Positions 1,981 through 32,118 of a stretch of 32,118 nucleotides of DNA are shown in pieces. Within the stretch, counting starts at the first letter, position 1, and every line of letters begins with the position of its first letter. Origin of the DNA: Myxococcales bacterium (GTDB taxonomy: Bacteria; Myxococcota_A; Polyangia; Palsa-1104; SHYY01). The DNA is taken from the NCBI GenBank assembly GCA_023248875.1, contig JAHFDT010000017.1, positions 1 to 32,118 of the forward strand. The letters run 5' to 3'. The position numbers were made by a program, and so were the translations under genes. The notes under the pieces were generated by a model. It saw only the letters and a program-made list of their open reading frames with translations, ran no database searches and was not told the DNA's origin.

Positions 1981-3375
1981 ATGGACGATTCCAAGATCCC
2001 CAACAACGTCAACCTGTCGTCGGACAAGCGGCTGCAACGCGCGCTCGAACAGTGGCTTCCGAACTACCTCCACTGGTGGCAGGAGATGGGGCCGGACAGC
2101 TGGCAAGGGTCCGATGTTTACCTGCGCACCGCGATCTCCGTCGAGGCAGATGGCTGGGCCCACTTCGACTACGTGCGCATGCCCGAGTACCGCTGGGGGA
2201 TTTTTTTGACGCCGCCCGAAACCGGACGAACCATCGGCTTTGGCGACCATGCGGGGCAGCCGGCCTGGCAGGAGGTGCCGGGCGAGTTTCGCAACATGCT
2301 GCGGCGAATCATCGTCACGCAGGCCGATACCGAGCCCGCGTCCGTCGAGCAACAGCGGCTGCTCGGTGCCAAGGCACCATCGCTGTACGATCTCCGCAAC
2401 CTCTTCCAGGTCAACGTCGAGGAGGGGCGCCATTTGTGGGCGATGGTCTACCTGCTTCACAGCCATTTCGGCAAAGATGGCCGGGAGGAGGCTGAGGCGC
2501 TGCTCGAACGGCGCTCGGGCGACCGCGACAAGCCACGCATTCTCGGCGCCTTCAACCAGCCGATCGAAAACTGGCTCGACTTCTTCATGTTCACCATGTT
2601 CACCGATCGCGATGGTAAGTATCAGCTCTTCGCCTTGTCCGAATCGGGGTTCGATCCACTCAGCCGTACCTGCAAATTCATGATCACCGAAGAGGCGCAC
2701 CACATGTTTGTCGGTGAAACGGGCGTCGATCGGGTAGTGCAGCGCACCGCAGATCTGATGACGAAGGGCGACGTAGTGCAGCAGGGGGGAATTCCGCTCG
2801 AGGTAATCCAGCGTTACATCAACCTCTGGTTCAGCCTGTCGGAGGATCTGTTCGGCGGTGAGATTTCGTCGAACGCGGCGGATTTTTTCGCCGCAGGGCT
2901 CAAGGGGCGCTACAAGGAGGCGCAGTACCAAGACCACCGCGCGCTCGACGTCAGCTACACGATGCAGGTCCCCGATGGCAGCCAACTCATCGACAAACAG
3001 GTTCCGCTCCGCACCGCCATGAACGAGGTGCTGCGCGATGGTTATGTCGAGGATTGCCAGCGGGCGATCGACAAATGGAACCGTTCGCTCGAACGAGCCG
3101 GTCTCGACGAGCAGCTGCGGCTGCCCCACCGAAGATTCCACCGCCAACAGGGCATCTATGCCAATCAGCTGTTCGATGTCGAGGGACGCCCGATCGACGA
3201 GGCAACCTGGCGCGCCCACGTCGACGAATGGCTACCGAATGCAGCCGATCGCGCCTGTGTCGAGAGCGTGATGCATCCGGTCTACGAACGGGGCAAGATC
3301 GCCAACTGGGTCGCGCCGCCCGCCAAAGGGATCAACGGGCAGCCGTTCGACTTTGAATATGTGCGACGCAGTTAG
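1981..3375 (+). CDS. boxB: Benzoyl-CoA 2,3-epoxidase, diiron oxygenase subunit BoxB
   Basis: Oxygenase component that epoxidises the ring of benzoyl-CoA with O2, using electrons delivered by the BoxA reductase. The 464-residue protein opens with the typical MDDSKIPNNVNLSSDKRLQRA-like BoxB start. It carries two ExxH motifs expected to bind the diiron centre, E148-G-R-H151 and E238-A-H-H241. A strong Shine-Dalgarno (AAGGAG) precedes the ATG. The gene follows boxC by 8 nt and its product supplies the BoxC substrate. Its TAG stop at 3373-3375 runs directly into the left arm of a large inverted-repeat element. A long open frame on the opposite strand here is a codon-bias shadow. Confidence 0.95.
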   Translation: MDDSKIPNNVNLSSDKRLQRALEQWLPNYLHWWQEMGPDSWQGSDVYLRTAISVEADGWAHFDYVRMPEYRWGIFLTPPETGRTIGFGDHAGQPAWQEVPGEFRNMLRRIIVTQADTEPASVEQQRLLGAKAPSLYDLRNLFQVNVEEGRHLWAMVYLLHSHFGKDGREEAEALLERRSGDRDKPRILGAFNQPIENWLDFFMFTMFTDRDGKYQLFALSESGFDPLSRTCKFMITEEAHHMFVGETGVDRVVQRTADLMTKGDVVQQGGIPLEVIQRYINLWFSLSEDLFGGEISSNAADFFAAGLKGRYKEAQYQDHRALDVSYTMQVPDGSQLIDKQVPLRTAMNEVLRDGYVEDCQRAIDKWNRSLERAGLDEQLRLPHRRFHRQQGIYANQLFDVEGRPIDEATWRAHVDEWLPNAADRACVESVMHPVYERGKIANWVAPPAKGINGQPFDFEYVRRS

Positions 3376-3532
3376 GCGCCCGGTCGGAATAAACTGCGCA
3401 ACTGGGCAGCCGAGTCATCCCTGCTCGCCTCGTTGCTCCTCGGTCAAATACGGAGAGTATTCTCCCTCGTCGCGCCTCGCGAATCAGGGCGCCTCGACCG
3501 CCGAGATGTGCAGTTTATTCCGGCCGGGCGCC
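3375..3532. repeat. Large inverted-repeat element A (158 bp)
   Basis: The left arm at 3375-3400 and right arm at 3507-3532 are reverse complements over 26 bp with two mismatches; both contain GGAATAAACTG or its complement. The interior is 106 nt and is itself an imperfect palindrome. At its centre AATAC and GTATT (about 3448-3461) form a small stem with a GGAGA loop. CTCGGTCA lies before it and CTCCCTCGTCGCGCCTCGCG after it. This core matches the core of element B and, more distantly, element C, while the arms differ. The first arm base is the last base of the boxB stop codon. It could act as a terminator or 3'-end stabiliser; no U-run is seen. Confidence 0.8.
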
Positions 3533-21697: not shown

Positions 21698-23059
21698 TCA
21701 AACGGATCGCTTGGCCAGCCGCTCCCACAGCGCCGCTGCGCCCACTCCGGTGAGCGCCATCAGGGCCGGGAACACCTCCACCAGGTAGCGTTCGACCGGG
21801 AAGGGGTGGAAGATTGCTGGCAGTGCGGTTCGTAGGATGCCAGCGATGGTAATGAGGCCCACCAGAAGGTGCTGCCTCTTTTGCCACAGCCACACTGCTC
21901 CGAACATCGCCAAAGCCAACAGCAGCCATTCAAACAGGCCATAGAAGGTCCGAAGCCGGGGCAGACCGAGCCAGCCGATGCGCACGGGCAACTCGTACTC
22001 CGGCATGGGGTGCCATTCGTAGAAGGCCCGCAGCAGCGGAAGGACCCAGTAGACCCGCAGCGGATCCGCGCGCGCCCGTTCGGTGGCCAGATCGCCAAAC
22101 GCCTGGTCGAGCTCGGGGGTGAGATGCGTCCGGTTATACTGCTTGAAGAGCGCCTCTATCCGGCTGCGTTCAGCGTCGTCGCGATACATCGCAGGCAAGA
22201 GGATGCCGGCGTGGTGGATATCGAGCGGCTGTTCGTTCGCGACGGCATATTGGAGGTAGGCCTCGCCGGGGGCACCCGAGGCCCAGCTGCGGAACCAGCG
22301 CTCCATCTGCGTGAGCTTTTGAGGCGTGCCATCCTGCTTGACCCAGCGTGAGGCGGTGGCGTGCGGTGCACCGAATTCGCCCAGGTTGCGCAGCGGCCAG
22401 GGGGAAAAGGTCAGCACCATCGCTGCGGCAAAGGCGAGCGCTGCGATCAGGCGGGTTCGCAGCGGCGACCTCGCCGCCATCAGGGCCAGCCCCAACGAAG
22501 GGAGGAGAAAGAGTGCATCGACCCGCACCAGCTGGCCGAGGCCGGCAAAAAAACCCGCTCGTGCGGCGTTGCGTACGGTGCCGAATTGCACTGCACGTGC
22601 GATGAAGTAGAGCTCCGCGGTGGCGAGGAAGGTGGCGAGTGATTCGCTGAGCCCAAAGGTCGAAAGGAAGACCATCAGCGGGCAGACGATCGTCGCGACG
22701 AAGGCGAAGCGCGCGGCGCGCGGCAGCCGGAGCTCGACGAGCAGGCGCGCCATGAGCAGCGCCGAGCCCAAATCGAGCAGGACATTCCACAGCGTTGCGA
22801 GCAGCAGGTATTGGTCGAGGCCGAGGGGTGCAGGTGCGGCGAGGAAGGCCAAGAAGAGCGGGTAGCCGGGGAGCCGCGCCCAACTGAGCGGCTCCGGTGG
22901 TGGGGCGAAGGCCAAGCGGTGGTGTGCCACCAGCTCCTGCGTGAGCGCGTAGTACTGCAGCCCATCTCCCGCCGGCACGTGCCAGCTCAGCACGATGGCG
23001 ATCCGCACGAGCACTGCGACGAGGCAAGCCGGGAGCCAAAAGCGCAGGGAGGTTTTCAT
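21698..23059 (-). CDS. Polytopic membrane glycosyltransferase-like protein (GT-C/GT39-like)
   Basis: 453 residues from the ATG at 23059 (MKTSLRFWLPACLVAVLVRIAIVL). An alternative upstream start at 23083 would overlap the promoter. About ten hydrophobic helices are visible. The first loop contains PAGDGLQYYALTQEL, an acidic residue soon after helix 1 that fits the catalytic Asp of GT-C enzymes using polyprenyl-phosphate sugars. LPGYPLFLAF and a C-terminal FHPFPVERYLVEVFPALMAL region resemble GT39/ArnT-type proteins. It probably transfers a sugar outside the cytoplasmic membrane; donor and acceptor are unknown. It heads a minus-strand run with the HD-GYP regulator. Confidence 0.75.
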   Translation of the reverse strand: MKTSLRFWLPACLVAVLVRIAIVLSWHVPAGDGLQYYALTQELVAHHRLAFAPPPEPLSWARLPGYPLFLAFLAAPAPLGLDQYLLLATLWNVLLDLGSALLMARLLVELRLPRAARFAFVATIVCPLMVFLSTFGLSESLATFLATAELYFIARAVQFGTVRNAARAGFFAGLGQLVRVDALFLLPSLGLALMAARSPLRTRLIAALAFAAAMVLTFSPWPLRNLGEFGAPHATASRWVKQDGTPQKLTQMERWFRSWASGAPGEAYLQYAVANEQPLDIHHAGILLPAMYRDDAERSRIEALFKQYNRTHLTPELDQAFGDLATERARADPLRVYWVLPLLRAFYEWHPMPEYELPVRIGWLGLPRLRTFYGLFEWLLLALAMFGAVWLWQKRQHLLVGLITIAGILRTALPAIFHPFPVERYLVEVFPALMALTGVGAAALWERLAKRSV

Positions 23060-23073
23060 CGATGGCGGCGCAC

Positions 23074-23081
23074 AGTATAAC
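23074..23081. promoter_or_regulatory. Overlapping divergent -10 boxes
   Basis: AGTATAAC reads TATAAC on the plus strand (23076-23081), ending 6 nt before the GTG at 23088. It reads TATACT on the minus strand (23079-23074), 14 nt before the ATG at 23059. On the plus strand TTTTCA at 23053-23058, 17 nt upstream, is a fair -35. The two promoters share bases and cannot be used at the same time. Confidence 0.45.
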
Positions 23082-23087
23082 ACCAGG

Positions 23088-24629
23088 GTGTTGCGCTCCC
23101 GGCTTCTCCTCGCCGTCTACGTCCTATTGACCACAGTGTCGCTACTGCCGATCTGGTGGGTGCGCTACCAACCGCTGCCCGATCTTTCGCAGCACCTCGC
23201 TGCCGCATCGGTGCTGCACAACCTCAGCGATCCGCGCTTCGATCTCGCCCGCTACTACGAGCTCAGCCTGGGTCTTACGCCCTACTGGGGCTACTACGGC
23301 CTGGTTCATCTGTTCGCTTTTCCTCTGGGGGTCGAAACGGCCAATCGGGTTGTGCTGTCGCTTTACGTCGCCGCGCTGCCCGCCGGTATGGGCCTGCTTG
23401 CACGCCGTTTCGCGCGCAGCCCCTGGCTCGGTCTGTTCACCTTTCCGATAGTGTGGAACTACAATTTCACCACCGGCTTCATCGCCTTTGCGCTCGGGCT
23501 GGCGGTGCTCCCTTGGGCGCTCGTCTGCTTCGACCGTTTTTGCGAGCGCGCTACGCCCGGCCGAGCGATCGCGGCCGTCGCCACGGGAGTAGCGGTTTTT
23601 TTCGTCCATCTTCTGCCGTGGGGCGCCTGGATCGGCTGCGCCGGACTCATCGGCCTTTTGCACCGCGGACAGAGTCTGCGGGCCATCGCGCAGCGCTTCC
23701 TGGTCTGGTGCGCGCCAACAGCGATCGGCGTGTGGGTCATGCTGCACGGCAAAGGGCTCAATATGGGCAGCGTGGCGCAGGGCATCACCTGGCGCCGTTA
23801 CGACGCCTGGTCGCAGGTGGGCCAGCTCTTCTACTGGGTATGGAACAATGGCTCCGATTTCGTCGTCGATCTCCCGGTGCTGGTGCTGGTGCTGGTGCTC
23901 CTCGCCGCCTGGGGAGCGCTGAAACTCAGTGCGCGGCGCCCGGTGCTGACGCTCCACGGGCTGCGCGCCGAGGCCTGCGTGCTGGTGGCGCTCGTGGCCT
24001 ATCTGGTGCTGCCGCGCTCCGTGCTCTCGCCGGGCTACTGGTGGGGCATCAACATTCGGTTCGCCTGCATCGCGGCGATGTTCATTGCGCTCTGTGTGCC
24101 GGGTGAAATCGTCGGTGGGCGGCGCTTTCTCCTGGTGCCGGTCGTGCTGGTGGGCCTCGGCTTTGCCGCACTGACGACGGTGCGATGGGTTCGCGCCAAC
24201 CATTTTTGTGCTGGCTACGACGAGCTCGCGCTGCAGATCACGCCCGGATCGCGCGTCCTCTTTGTCCTCCAAGAGCCGTGGCATTCGCCCGAAGATCGCT
24301 GGCACTACGTCCAAACCTATTACGGCATCCACCAGGCGCGCTTCGGGGGCTACATGCCCTACAATTTCGACGAGGGCTTTCCGCTCAAGTACAAGGTGCG
24401 CTACCCGGCCCCCACCTGGCGCCAGATGGTTTTTCGCTGGGATCGCCAGGCGCGCTACTACGACTATGTGCTGTCCTTCAACCACACTGGGAAGTCGCTG
24501 TTTGGCGCCCATCTCAAGGAGGTGACCCTCGTGAGCAGCTCCGGCCGCTGGAGCTTGTGGAAGCTGCCGGGCCCGCGGATCGACCAGCCGCCGCAGCCCG
24601 CCTACCCGTCGACGTGGGCGCTGCAGTAG
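23088..24629 (+). CDS. Polytopic membrane protein, possibly GT-C-type glycosyltransferase
   Basis: 513 residues from the GTG at 23088 (VLRSRLLLAVYVLLTTVSLLPIWW). Upstream in-frame starts lie inside the divergent gene. Eleven or so hydrophobic helices are seen. After the first one comes RYQPLPDLSQHLAAASVL, with an Asp in the place expected for the first catalytic residue of GT-C enzymes. A soluble C-terminal domain (about 410-513) includes TPGSRVLFVLQEPWHSP, YVQTYYGIHQARFGGYMP and RQARYYDYVLSF. This tail occurs in several bacterial membrane proteins of unknown function. It is divergent from another GT-C-like gene, so both may serve one cell-surface glycan. The assignment is tentative. Confidence 0.7.
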   Translation: MLRSRLLLAVYVLLTTVSLLPIWWVRYQPLPDLSQHLAAASVLHNLSDPRFDLARYYELSLGLTPYWGYYGLVHLFAFPLGVETANRVVLSLYVAALPAGMGLLARRFARSPWLGLFTFPIVWNYNFTTGFIAFALGLAVLPWALVCFDRFCERATPGRAIAAVATGVAVFFVHLLPWGAWIGCAGLIGLLHRGQSLRAIAQRFLVWCAPTAIGVWVMLHGKGLNMGSVAQGITWRRYDAWSQVGQLFYWVWNNGSDFVVDLPVLVLVLVLLAAWGALKLSARRPVLTLHGLRAEACVLVALVAYLVLPRSVLSPGYWWGINIRFACIAAMFIALCVPGEIVGGRRFLLVPVVLVGLGFAALTTVRWVRANHFCAGYDELALQITPGSRVLFVLQEPWHSPEDRWHYVQTYYGIHQARFGGYMPYNFDEGFPLKYKVRYPAPTWRQMVFRWDRQARYYDYVLSFNHTGKSLFGAHLKEVTLVSSSGRWSLWKLPGPRIDQPPQPAYPSTWALQ

Positions 24630-24655: not shown

Positions 24656-24819
24656 TTAGGGCCCGCATATGAATAAATCAATCGTTCTCGCCCCCGATGC
24701 ATCCCAGGTGGCTGCGTTATGCGTCGGTCACTTGCCTACGGGCAAGCTCCCTCCTTGCGCCTTGCCATCCGGGCGCCTCATGGCCAGCTTCGATTGATTT
24801 ATTCATATGCGGGCCCTAA
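24656..24819. repeat. Large inverted-repeat element B (164 bp)
   Basis: The arms at 24656-24684 and 24791-24819 are perfect reverse complements over 29 bp (TTAGGGCCCGCATATGAATA... and complement). The interior is 106 nt, the same length as in element A. The two interiors align along their length with one inserted and one deleted base; CGTCGGTCA, CTCCCTC, GCGCCT and GGGCGCCTC are shared. The central stem is CTTGCC/GGCAAG, replacing AATAC/GTATT of element A and so covarying. It lies 26 nt after the preceding stop codon and ends 9 nt before the coaX ATG. TTGATT in the right arm and TAACCT at its edge, 17 nt apart, are a weak promoter match for coaX. Confidence 0.85.
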
Positions 24820-28821: not shown

Positions 28822-29241
28822 ATGGCCAGCAACTCCGACGGAGAAGAACGCCGCATTGATCCCCGCGTGCCGATCGAACTCAAGGTCGAATACAAGAAGC
28901 TCAACACCTTCTTCGCCGACTATACCAAGAACATCTGCAAGGGCGGGACGTTCATTCGCACCCGCAAACCGCTCGACGTTGGAACCGAGTTTCTGTTCCG
29001 CCTTTCGGTGCCCAAACTCCCTAACCCACTTTCACTGCGCGGCCTCGTACGCTGGGTCAAGCGCGATGGCGATCCCTCGCCCGAGGGAGTACCGCCCGAT
29101 CACGAACCAGGAATGGGCATTCGTTTTCTCTATTCCTCGGACGCAGAGCGGGTCGAGATCGAGAATACGGTGGAGAAGTTGATGATCGATAGCCTCGGCC
29201 CACTACTCTATTCGAAGCTGATGGGCCGCCTCACTCCATGA
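28822..29241 (+). CDS. PilZ-domain protein (TIGR02266-like)
   Basis: 139 residues from the ATG at 28822; a longer frame begins within the divergent gene. The PilZ RxxxR motif is R11-I-D-P-R15 and the second c-di-GMP-binding motif reads N37-I-C39-K-G-G42. Ser of the usual N/DxSxxG is replaced by Cys. The sequence pattern (ERRIDPRVPIELKVEYK..., then GGTFIRTRKPLDVGTEFLF) is that of the Myxococcus xanthus paralogous domain family TIGR02266. It is probably a small c-di-GMP receptor, if the Cys substitution is tolerated. Its stop overlaps the phosphatidylserine synthase start by 4 bp. Confidence 0.88.
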   Translation: MASNSDGEERRIDPRVPIELKVEYKKLNTFFADYTKNICKGGTFIRTRKPLDVGTEFLFRLSVPKLPNPLSLRGLVRWVKRDGDPSPEGVPPDHEPGMGIRFLYSSDAERVEIENTVEKLMIDSLGPLLYSKLMGRLTP

Positions 29242-30047
29242 AGTATCTGGTGCCGAATGGCATCACCTGTTCGAGCATTCTCTTTTCCATGCTCGGCATC
29301 CACGCCGCCCTCGTCGGCGACATGCGGAGCGCCTGCTGGTGGATCCTCTACTCGGTGCTCTCCGACAAGCTCGACGGTCTGGTCGCGCGCAAGCTCAATG
29401 CCTCCTCGCCCTTTGGCGCCCAGCTCGACTCCTTGGCCGATTTGGCCTCCTTCGGCTTTGCGCCAGCGACGCTGTTTTGCGCCTTCTATTCGCGCCATCC
29501 GGAGGCCGGCTGGACTTCGGGTTGGCAGGCCGTGGCGCTACCGGTCATCGCCGCCAGCTATGTGATCGCCACGGCGATCCGATTGGCGCGCTTCAATGTG
29601 ATCGCCGATATTCCCGGTGCCGAGCGGATCTTTTTCGGCATGCCCTCCACCTTTGCCGGGGGGCTCATGACCGCGCTCCTTTGCACGCTGCTCAAGTATG
29701 GCGATCCGCAATGGGGCGGCGCCACCGCCGGCGATTGGCCGATGCTGGGTGTGGTGCGGCTCGATGGGCTCGCGCCTCATCTGCCGTGGGGGCTGCTCGG
29801 TGCCGCAGTGGCCATGGTTTCTCAGCTGCGGGTCCCCAAGGTCGGGGCCACCCAGATTCGCTTGATCAATGTGGGGCTGATCTCCAACGCCGTGGTTTGC
29901 TTCGGCCTGGGGTTGGCTCGGCGAATGCCCGAGTATCTCGCCGTCAGTGCGCTCGTCTATTTTGTCTTTTCCATCGGCAACCACCTGCTGGCGCCTTCGA
30001 CGCGTGGGGTCAAGCCTCCGCCGCTGTTCAGACAGGCGAGCGGTTAA
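29238..30047 (+). CDS. pssA: CDP-diacylglycerol-serine O-phosphatidyltransferase
   Basis: Integral membrane enzyme that condenses CDP-diacylglycerol with serine to give phosphatidylserine, the precursor of phosphatidylethanolamine. The 269-residue protein starts MKYLVPNGITCSSILFSM. It shows the complete CDP-alcohol phosphatidyltransferase motif DGxxARx8GxxxDxxxD (D46-G47, A50-R51, G60, D64, D68). About seven membrane helices follow. The ATG overlaps the PilZ stop (ATGA), so the two are translationally coupled. The TAA stop at 30045-30047 forms the outer end of inverted-repeat element C. Confidence 0.93.
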   Translation: MKYLVPNGITCSSILFSMLGIHAALVGDMRSACWWILYSVLSDKLDGLVARKLNASSPFGAQLDSLADLASFGFAPATLFCAFYSRHPEAGWTSGWQAVALPVIAASYVIATAIRLARFNVIADIPGAERIFFGMPSTFAGGLMTALLCTLLKYGDPQWGGATAGDWPMLGVVRLDGLAPHLPWGLLGAAVAMVSQLRVPKVGATQIRLINVGLISNAVVCFGLGLARRMPEYLAVSALVYFVFSIGNHLLAPSTRGVKPPPLFRQASG

Positions 30048-30220
30048 CGCGGTGCTCGGGCGCGTTGGCCACTTTGATCAGGGCTTACGTCCTCCCTCGG
30101 TCTCGTCACATACCAAAAGTATGCTCCTCGGCCTCGGTCCGCGAGGCTCCCGGTCCGAGGACGTCTGCGACCGAGGCCGTGGAGAGGCGCTCGCGCTGAA
30201 CGCGCCCGAGCACCGCGTTA
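30045..30220. repeat. Large inverted-repeat element C (176 bp) between convergent genes
   Basis: The arms at 30045-30066 and 30199-30220 are perfect reverse complements over 22 bp (TAACGCGGTGCTCGGGCGCG... and complement). The interior of 132 nt holds a nested stem ACGTCCTC/GAGGACGT and a central small stem CATAC/GTATG with a CAAAA loop, followed by CTCC as in elements A and B. The left arm starts with the TAA stop of pssA. The right arm ends with the complement of the TAA stop of the GMC oxidoreductase gene, so each gene terminates inside an arm. A bidirectional terminator or 3'-end protector is plausible. Confidence 0.8.
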
Positions 30221-31813
30221 TGCCCAGCTCGCGTGCAGTCGGCCCGCCACCCAGTGTGCGATCCCGTAGATCGTTTCCTGCGGATTGACCCCGAGCGAAG
30301 TTGGCAGCACTGAGCCGTCGATGACGTAGAGGTTGGCGATGCGATGGTGGCGCAGATCGCTCGGTCGCACCACCGAACGAATCGGATCTGCGCCCATCGT
30401 GCAGCCGCCCATCACATGGGCGCTGAAGACGGCGATTCGTCCCGTGGCATAGGGCGCACTATCGAGTTTTGCCAGATCGGCTTGCGAGCGGATTTCAATC
30501 ACTGGATCGTGCCCGGTTCGCACCACTTCGGCGCCGGCGGCGAGATCTATTTCGGCCAATTTTCGGACGGCGGTGCGAATCGCCTCCCAGATCCGGGGTG
30601 GGAGTACATAGTCGAGCTGCGGTGCGCCCGAGGGGCGGACTTGGACGGTGCCGCCCGTTTCAGTGGCGCCGAAGCCATCGATGGCGAGGGCAATGTGCGC
30701 GCTCAGGTAGGGCAGATCGAGCATTTCTCGTCGGTGGGTCTCCGCAAAGCCGGGGAGCGAGAGCGCTGCGAGCATGGGATGGATCGGCGCCGTTTCGAGA
30801 AACAGGCCACACTGGTTGCCGCGATGGGCCAGCGCGTGGCTGGCAATCGACTGCGGTGCGCCGTAGTAGGGCTCGACGATTTCCTTGTGGCGCGCGGAGA
30901 CGCCAACGGTGGGGTGGAGAAAGGTGCGGCGGCCGAGCGGCGAGCTGCTGCCGCCGAGGCCCGAGCGAATGAGCAGGGCGGGAGAATTGATCGCGCCCGC
31001 GCTGACTATGAAATGTTTGGCTTCGATCTCGAGGGTGGCCCCAGTGGGCGTATGGCCATCCTCACTTAGCACTTGGCCGCGGGCGCGCACGACGCGGCCC
31101 GCTTCGATGTCGAGCCGATCGATATGGCAGCGATAGAGCACCGTGGCGCCGCGGGCCACGGCATCGGGCAGGTAGGTGACCAGCATGCTCTGCTTGGCAT
31201 CGATGGGACAGCCCATGCCGCAGTAGCCCGACTTCATGCACTGCTTTACATTGCGGCGCGTCGGTGCCGCCGCGAGGCCCAGCGCTTGACAGCCGTCGTA
31301 AAGGAGCCGGTTATTGCGGTTGGACTCCTCGAGCGGAATTTCACGGATGTTGAGCCGCTCTTCGACCGCGGCAAAGTGGGGCGCGAGCGTGGCCGCGTCG
31401 AGCTCGGCGACACCAAAGTGGTCACGCCAGTGCTGCAGCACCGGCTCGGGTGTACGAAAACTGGTGGTCCAGTTGACGACCGTTGTGCCACCGACAGTGC
31501 GCCCCTGCAGGATGGAGACTCCGAGATCGGCAGTGGCGCGCGCGCCGCCCTCTTCGTAGAGGTGGCGGAAGGCCACGTCCTCGCGCATGTTGAAGTCTTT
31601 GCGCGTGCGGTGGCCACCCTCTTCGACCACCAGCACCTCGTGACCCGCGCCGGCGAGCGTGGCTGCGGCGACGGCTCCGCCCGCGCCCGAACCGATGATG
31701 CAGACCTCGGGGGTCAGCCGACGAGTCCATTCAATCATCTTGCGATCCCACCCCATCGCGTTGGCATCGCGGAAGCCGTCCATCTTGCCATCTTCGAAGA
31801 CCGCGCGGCTCAT
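30218..31813 (-). CDS. GMC-family FAD-dependent oxidoreductase
   Basis: Flavoprotein of 531 residues oxidising an alcohol group. The ATG at 31813 (MSRAVFEDGKMDGF) is chosen because it overlaps the upstream stop by 4 bp; the longer frame covers the neighbouring gene. The FAD dinucleotide-binding motif is VCIIGSGAGGAVAAATLA (about 37-54), with GRTVGGTTVVNW as the second FAD loop. A Cys-rich insert, KQCMKSGYCGMGCPIDAKQSM, and the C-terminal HVMGGCTMG and NPQETIYGIAHW are typical of the GMC_oxred_C branch that includes cholesterol-oxidase-like enzymes. The substrate is unknown. The small GLDH3-like partner is encoded directly upstream. Confidence 0.92.
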   Translation of the reverse strand: MSRAVFEDGKMDGFRDANAMGWDRKMIEWTRRLTPEVCIIGSGAGGAVAAATLAGAGHEVLVVEEGGHRTRKDFNMREDVAFRHLYEEGGARATADLGVSILQGRTVGGTTVVNWTTSFRTPEPVLQHWRDHFGVAELDAATLAPHFAAVEERLNIREIPLEESNRNNRLLYDGCQALGLAAAPTRRNVKQCMKSGYCGMGCPIDAKQSMLVTYLPDAVARGATVLYRCHIDRLDIEAGRVVRARGQVLSEDGHTPTGATLEIEAKHFIVSAGAINSPALLIRSGLGGSSSPLGRRTFLHPTVGVSARHKEIVEPYYGAPQSIASHALAHRGNQCGLFLETAPIHPMLAALSLPGFAETHRREMLDLPYLSAHIALAIDGFGATETGGTVQVRPSGAPQLDYVLPPRIWEAIRTAVRKLAEIDLAAGAEVVRTGHDPVIEIRSQADLAKLDSAPYATGRIAVFSAHVMGGCTMGADPIRSVVRPSDLRHHRIANLYVIDGSVLPTSLGVNPQETIYGIAHWVAGRLHASWA

Positions 31814-32118
31814 GTAGGAGAAACTCCCGGGATGGTCGGTGGTCCCGGATAGGCGAGCCCCTCCCAGGTGGCCGGACTCGAGTAGTGCGCACCCAGGCAC
31901 AGTTTGCGCAGCGCCTGGTAACCCGAGCGCCGCACTGCGAGATGCGAATCGCGAAAGGCGCACAGGGCCGCATCTTGGCCCGCACCGTCGAGCCTTGTGA
32001 AGTTGCGCGAGCGTCCATCGAGCAGCAGACCAGCGAGACGATTTTCTAGCAGCGCCAGTAGCTGGCGAAAATCACCGCCCGATTCGGCCGCGCCGAGCGA
32101 AAGCACCTCGTCGACCCG
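31810..32118 (-). CDS. Gluconate 2-dehydrogenase subunit 3-like small subunit (5' cut by window edge)
   Basis: The frame is open to the window edge and ends with a TGA overlapping the GMC oxidoreductase ATG by 4 bp. The 102 visible codons include VDEVLSLGAAESGGDFRQLLALLE and the C-terminal LRKLCLGAHYSSPATWEGLAYPGPP. The latter matches the ending of gluconate 2-dehydrogenase subunit 3 family proteins (the 'AYYSSPEVWELLGYPGP' pattern). In that family the small subunit is needed for export or maturation of a GMC flavoprotein, which is exactly the neighbour here. The N-terminus, and any Tat signal, lies outside the window. Confidence 0.8.
   Translation of the reverse strand, partial: RVDEVLSLGAAESGGDFRQLLALLENRLAGLLLDGRSRNFTRLDGAGQDAALCAFRDSHLAVRRSGYQALRKLCLGAHYSSPATWEGLAYPGPPTIPGVSPT

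Follow-up and report, generated by a model that had tools for sequence, protein, structure and literature searches.

The three large hairpins in the window—the whole stretch of 32,118 nucleotides that we analyzed, which is one entire contig of a 4.0-Mb, 304-contig draft genome—very probably belong to an ERIC-type superfamily of miniature, non-autonomous transposons (MITEs). Copies of these elements are 158–192 bp long, with inverted arms and no coding gene, and they have several of the properties by which MITEs are recognized: terminal inverted repeats, a length below 500 bp, the lack of a gene, and 3-bp duplications, here in 21 of 26 copies.

How are the window's own elements built? Inspection of the sequence found foldbacks A, B, and C at the coordinates given in the original prediction, which had also read their central stems (AATAC/GTATT, CTTGCC/GGCAAG, and CATAC/GTATG) correctly. 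Their folding z-scores are −7.7, −8.7, and −6.7, respectively, with 0 of 200 shuffled sequences equally stable. The features are as follows:

3375..3532, forward strand: element A (A-type subfamily), 158 bp, with boxB on one side and an RluA-family pseudouridine synthase gene on the other
3375..3400, forward strand: left outer arm (terminal inverted repeat) of A
3431..3435, forward strand: fixed loop 1 of A, 5' side, CGTTG
3440..3446, forward strand: fixed loop 2 of A, 5' side, TCGGTCA
3447..3461, forward strand: apical stem-loop P3 of A, AATAC GGAGA GTATT
3462..3468, forward strand: fixed loop 2 of A, 3' side, CTCCCTC
3473..3479, forward strand: fixed loop 1 of A, 3' side, CGCCTCG
3507..3532, forward strand: right outer arm of A
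24656..24819, forward strand: element B (B-type subfamily), 164 bp including perfect outer arms with terminal TTA/TAA
24724..24730, forward strand: fixed loop 2 of B, 5' side, TCGGTCA
24731..24746, forward strand: apical stem-loop P3 of B, CTTGCC TACG GGCAAG
24747..24753, forward strand: fixed loop 2 of B, 3' side, CTCCCTC
24758..24764, forward strand: fixed loop 1 of B, 3' side, CGCCTTG
29238..30047, forward strand: pssA-like gene, neighbor of C
30045..30220, forward strand: element C (C-type subfamily), 176 bp
30105..30127, forward strand: core of C, GTCA (CATAC CAAAA GTATG) CTCC
30218..31963, reverse strand: GMC oxidoreductase-like gene, neighbor of C

The arms of A span 40 nt at 85% complementarity (the outer 26-nt part has two mismatches), those of B are 29 bp and perfect with 106 nt between them, and those of C are 22 bp and perfect. 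Elements B (62.4 bits, E = 3e-17) and A (58.0 bits, E = 8e-16) both fit the covariance model at full length, in agreement with the earlier claim that the two align throughout; element C matches over its core only (14.2 bits, E = 0.06) and is one member of a subfamily that is well populated in its own genome. All three lie close to genes. The boxB stop codon TAG (3373–3375) consists of the flanking TTA plus the first G of element A. Element B starts 26 nt past the stop of the open reading frame at 22995–24629 and ends 9 nt ahead of the start codon (24829) of a type III pantothenate kinase gene, while the terminal TAA and TTA of C are the stop codons of its two convergent neighbors, one at each end. 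The 544-amino acid product of the frame directly upstream of B (22995–24629) matched no NCBIfam or Pfam family. Rfam returned no family for the window at either gathering or permissive thresholds.

We then asked how many such elements the genome carries. The core CGGTCA-N10-22-CTCCCTC occurs, as an exact match, 41 times in the 4.0-Mb draft, against 8 times in a control read backwards, and at least 98 loci match the covariance model at E ≤ 0.1 (150 were scored of 1,189 candidates); the proposed family thus reaches far beyond three members, and its many copies have stems that covary rather than mismatching at random. The copies fall into subfamilies. A-type copies have the central stem AAATAC/GTATT and arms GGCGCCCGGCCGGAATAAACTGC; B-type copies have CTTGCC/GGCAAG and arms GGGCCCGCGTATGAATAAATC; C-type copies have CACGTACC/GTACG or CATAC/GTATG, and their arms vary between copies yet remain paired. 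D-, E-, and F-types are built on the same plan, and the window contains one copy each of types A, B, and C. A plasmid search with an E-type copy found no match. A module, GGGGGGCTTGCCCCC-TTC-GTAGACTTGAGGGG, substitutes for part of helix P2 in copies with differing central stems and arms, both in the window's genome (L017, L023, L028, and L035) and in a related one (L097 and L104). Because the copies that carry it have unlike stems, interior modules would have been exchanged between subfamilies.

A-type copies in the same genome are also interrupted, in their apical loop, by an IS110-family element (PF01548, E = 1.4e-9). The left junction, CGGTCAAATAC|AGTTCCC, is identical at three places (L256:~300–914 on contig C2, the end of L258 on C56, and the end of L259 on C103), and right halves lie at L260 and L261. 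This insertion sequence (IS) appears to take the hairpin's loop as a landing site, as IS110-type elements do with REP. Single unpaired arms in this genome were considered as a possible autonomous element and rejected, as they are A-type copies split by the IS110-family element.

Outside inward, the elements share one plan: a variable helix P1, a fixed internal loop (CTGCGTTG/CGCCTTG), a variable helix P2, a second fixed loop (TCGGTCA/CTCCCTC), and a variable apical helix P3. Relatives from the same taxonomic order combine this core with many different paired stems. Across 49 diverse copies, from which we built the model R1, 77.9% of cells are paired (52.4% in shuffles), and both sides have changed in 354 cells (141 in shuffles), which bears out the prediction that structure is what is kept. 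The covariation score was 0.562, compared with 0.155 after shuffling (0 of 500 shuffles reached it) and 0.11–0.19 when partners were slid. The fixed loops cannot be counted as covariation and the scan demanded three anchor strings; it demanded neither the helices nor CGCCTTG.

Could such pairing persist without selection? If one arm were copied onto the other by quasipalindrome correction during replication, covariation would say nothing about function. Several outer arms are indeed perfectly complementary even though their sequence differs from copy to copy, as arm copying would predict. However, both internal loops stay unpaired and fixed in all lineages, where correction would erase them; the apical and inner helices covary too; and the mismatches differ between the strands, contrary to what symmetric correction predicts. 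Because such correction would remove the fixed mismatched loops and leave no strand bias, it does not by itself account for these observations, and we consider it quite improbable as the full account.

Are these elements mobile? Among 26 non-redundant, full-length copies of types A, B/D, and F, 21 are flanked by identical 3-mers (24 of 29 before removing three that were listed twice), a number that none of 20,000 shuffles reached. The duplicated triplets—TAA, TTA, TTG, TCA, and TGA—vary by copy, and all four copies in Luteitalea are flanked by TTA/TTA or TAA/TAA. Judging by these flanks of occupied sites, we interpret the triplets as target-site duplications and the window elements as transposable, a mobility that the original hairpin reading had missed while getting family, conserved structure, and position at gene ends right. 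The window's copies A (TTA/GTA) and B (TTA/TAA) are without a clean duplication. Among copies with enough flank, a stop-codon test placed the stop of an open frame of at least 70 codons at 85 of 135 left ends and at 39 right ends, compared with 7 and 15 in control windows, so the predicted preference for gene ends holds well above background. Such a position is expected because TNR targets often are, or overlap, stop codons.

The motif order resembles the reverse complement of ERIC, an element known for more than 30 years and the namesake of a widely used typing PCR. R1, which included no enterobacterial sequence, gave exactly four hits at E ≤ 10 on 88.6 kb of Escherichia coli sequence around five ERIC copies; all four were ERICs, on the expected strand and covering the full model, the best with E = 0.0012. 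It also recognized ERIC from Rahnella (38.6 bits, E = 3.9e-10), Salmonella houtenae (28.0 bits, E = 8e-7), and Klebsiella oxytoca (25.4 bits, E = 6e-6). Five more of the enterobacterial copies outside E. coli were missed; ERIC copies that scored under the R1 threshold included some from E. coli, Citrobacter, Proteus, and Klebsiella. Because a model free of enterobacterial copies recognizes ERIC, we place ERIC, from sequence and predicted structure, within the superfamily as the named corner of a pan-bacterial group. The hairpins had been described as having no settled name; they turn out to be the wider kin of a named element.

In what do the two agree and differ? ERIC (also IRU or RU-1) and the window elements share the core order TGCGTTG ... 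GTCA (stem) CTCC ... CGCCTT, and each is one long imperfect hairpin of about 100–180 bp, intergenic and multicopy. The window elements differ in residing in a phylum far from Gammaproteobacteria; their arms are longer, their ends are unrelated to those of ERIC, and the duplications are of 3 bp (TNR). The terminal repeats and TA motif that characterize ERIC (PMC2229807) are both absent from the window's genome, where arms begin GGCGCCCGG.., GGGCCCGCG.., or TACGCCC.. and duplications are TNR. According to review literature, ERIC is found in Enterobacteriaceae and Vibrionaceae (PMC10969869), a host range that our matches in many phyla exceed. A literature search, not exhaustive and so weak evidence, found no report of ERIC relatives beyond Gammaproteobacteria. 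The Rfam family RF02818 (V_AS5, "Vibrio RNA AS5") matched an E. coli ERIC over its full length at 48 bits, under its cut-off of 96 (L225:19997–20120); this was the only relevant Rfam match on the related loci, and V_AS5 is probably an ERIC copy. Some records in these collections look like mislabelled chromosome sequence: a 4.08-Mb Proteus "plasmid" (NZ_OL790811.1) and the Salmonella whole-genome contigs AGRM01000005.1 and AFYI01000001.1 in a phage collection.

How widespread is the architecture? Scanning public genomes for CTGCGTTG-N3-33-CGGTCA-N10-20-CTCCCTC matched at least 118 stretches, with approximately 40 chance matches estimated for a collection of such size. Most matches are considered real, because the apical stem pairs and CGCCTTG, which the pattern does not require, comes next. 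The architecture is found in Acidobacteriota, Bacteroidota, Clostridia, Actinobacteria, planctomycetes, and Alpha-, Gamma-, and Deltaproteobacteria, the matching records including Clostridia/Lachnospiraceae, Acidobacteria, Bacteroidales, Lewinella, Streptomycetaceae, Nocardioides, Kuenenia, Sphingomonas, Lysobacterales, Pseudomonas, Thiomicrorhabdus, and Desulfobacterales, among others. Inside the window's phylum it is patchy, occurring in 20 of 141 genomes (E ≤ 1e-6, strict filters).

A candidate mover was found in a Lewinella-type genome, where the elements begin and end with CTAGTGGCGCGAAAT and these ends recur 1.35 kb apart at two places. Besides a helix-turn-helix protein, the enclosed IS encodes an IS630-type transposase (DDE_3; Pfam, 7e-21); one of its two copies has broken frames, and the IS is without the hairpin core. 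Ends of about 34 bp are common to this IS and more than 20 elements in the one genome, and the Lewinella-type element is therefore a MITE of an IS630-family IS. In this Lewinella-type genome (G035), a second size class of about 201 bp (e.g., L337:144–344 and L338:213–413), with the same ends and a longer P2 region, occurs beside the 165-bp class. Within the window's draft genome, a search for an autonomous partner found no DDE_Tnp_4 and no pair of arms 1–3 kb apart; the 3-bp duplications and different arms there point to another transposase. The same core thus appears with at least two kinds of ends. An acidobacterial genome (G037) has multicopy ends, CTAGCAGCCYGTGGTGCAAT / CTAGCAGCCYGTGGTGCAATCGCG.., that halt at contig breaks (e.g., L340, L341, and L343), which left no transposase assigned to them, and of which the CTAGCAGCCYGTGGTGCAATCGCG.. 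ends resemble the arms of local elements; they are probably those of a multicopy IS, which could be the mover of those elements.

Which strand folds? The original prediction read the foldback on the forward strand, where it is present; the opposite strand folds more stably. With RNA parameters the complementary strand is the more stable one in 138 of 143 copies, and DNA parameters give the same result in 133; these figures are partly driven by the fixed loops common to all copies, which on this strand form tandem G-A mismatches. In A and B, the rod forms on the complementary strand. Outer-arm mismatches point the same way, with G-T wobbles on the complementary strand favored in 48 of 64 informative clusters (P = 8e-5); a count from P3 only was excluded, as one A-C pair is common to the clostridial copies. 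The less stable strand is co-directional with the upstream gene (61 left-only vs. 15 right-only cases), and the stable hairpin would therefore usually lie outside the mRNA of that gene. This leaves two readings: the fold is important as DNA, or selection purges those orientations in which the stable fold enters mRNA.

These orientations bear on whether the family could instead be a host-beneficial 3' UTR element—an mRNA stabilizer, processing site, or terminator—whose RNA form is what is conserved and whose mobility is incidental. The tight adjoining of stop codons and the 61-to-15 bias in orientation would suit such a role, and ERIC is reported to alter mRNA stability in Yersinia via RNase E in an orientation-dependent manner (PMC2229807; PMC10969869). 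Yet the strand running with the upstream gene folds less stably and has fewer G-U than A-C mismatches, the opposite of what RNA selection there would leave, and presence within one phylum is patchy. T-runs follow the right end in only 4 of 145 copies, and we rejected the reading as an intrinsic terminator on that count. Overall, we regard a host RNA element as unlikely. Far less likely still is a REP/REPIN-type element moved on single-stranded DNA by a RAYT (Y1 tyrosine) transposase, even though the elements lie between genes and a folded single strand, with one strand favored, appears to matter. REP elements bear a GTAG/CGTC-type tag at one end, and we know of none that leave a target-site duplication, whereas the ends here are symmetrical, 21 of 26 copies have duplications, and the partner found, in the Lewinella-type genome, is of the IS630 type.

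Comparison with other short repeats gives only partial likenesses. REP/REPIN units are much shorter than the window elements, tagged at the end, and linked to RAYT. Like the A-type copies, they are palindromes between genes into which IS110-type elements insert (PMC1525189). RUP of Streptococcus pneumoniae (linked to IS630-Spn1) and other IS630-type MITEs resemble the Lewinella-type element in being short and non-autonomous with IS630-family ends, whereas the window's genome has 3-bp duplications instead of TA; RUP is, to our knowledge, not known to carry the ERIC core. YPAL (RU-2) of Yersinia is likewise a palindromic intergenic element of about 168 bp, for which duplications of 3–26 bp and internal repeats have been described (PMC2229807).

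How might MITEs of this kind work? The outermost arms, which differ by lineage, are terminal inverted repeats, and the interior is a conserved rod in which two fixed, non-Watson-Crick internal loops separate freely varying, covarying helices. Transposases supplied in trans would move the elements, an IS630 enzyme doing so in the Lewinella-type genome. Where a TNR or CTAG target overlaps a stop codon, insertion would do no harm, so that copies would last at gene ends. Selection may act on the complementary strand in its folded form (GAGGGAG...TGACCGA), more plausibly because mobility or tolerance requires a DNA hairpin than because an RNA terminates or regulates. Ordinary MITEs show the reverse of this pattern, in which the interior is conserved from phylum to phylum and the ends vary; this suggests that the elements do more than hitch-hike, and that the conserved core has a role in mobility is our leading inference. 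More tentatively, the core may be a portable, structure-selected module of single-stranded DNA (or RNA) that has repeatedly been combined with ends from unrelated transposon families—the IS630 type with CTAG targets and another type with 3-bp TNR duplications—and does one ancient job for all, such as folding one strand to bring the two ends together or to secure host tolerance, with ERIC as the enterobacterial version; we hold this to be possible, though not the likelier case.

The origin, mover, and function of ERIC are unsettled, and descriptions so far confine ERIC to Enterobacteriaceae and Vibrionaceae. Assigning it to a superfamily that spans many phyla, with a covarying structure, a strand preference, two types of target duplication, and one IS630-type partner, would make its mobility and function directly testable, and the superfamily would explain unannotated hairpins at gene ends in many genomes.
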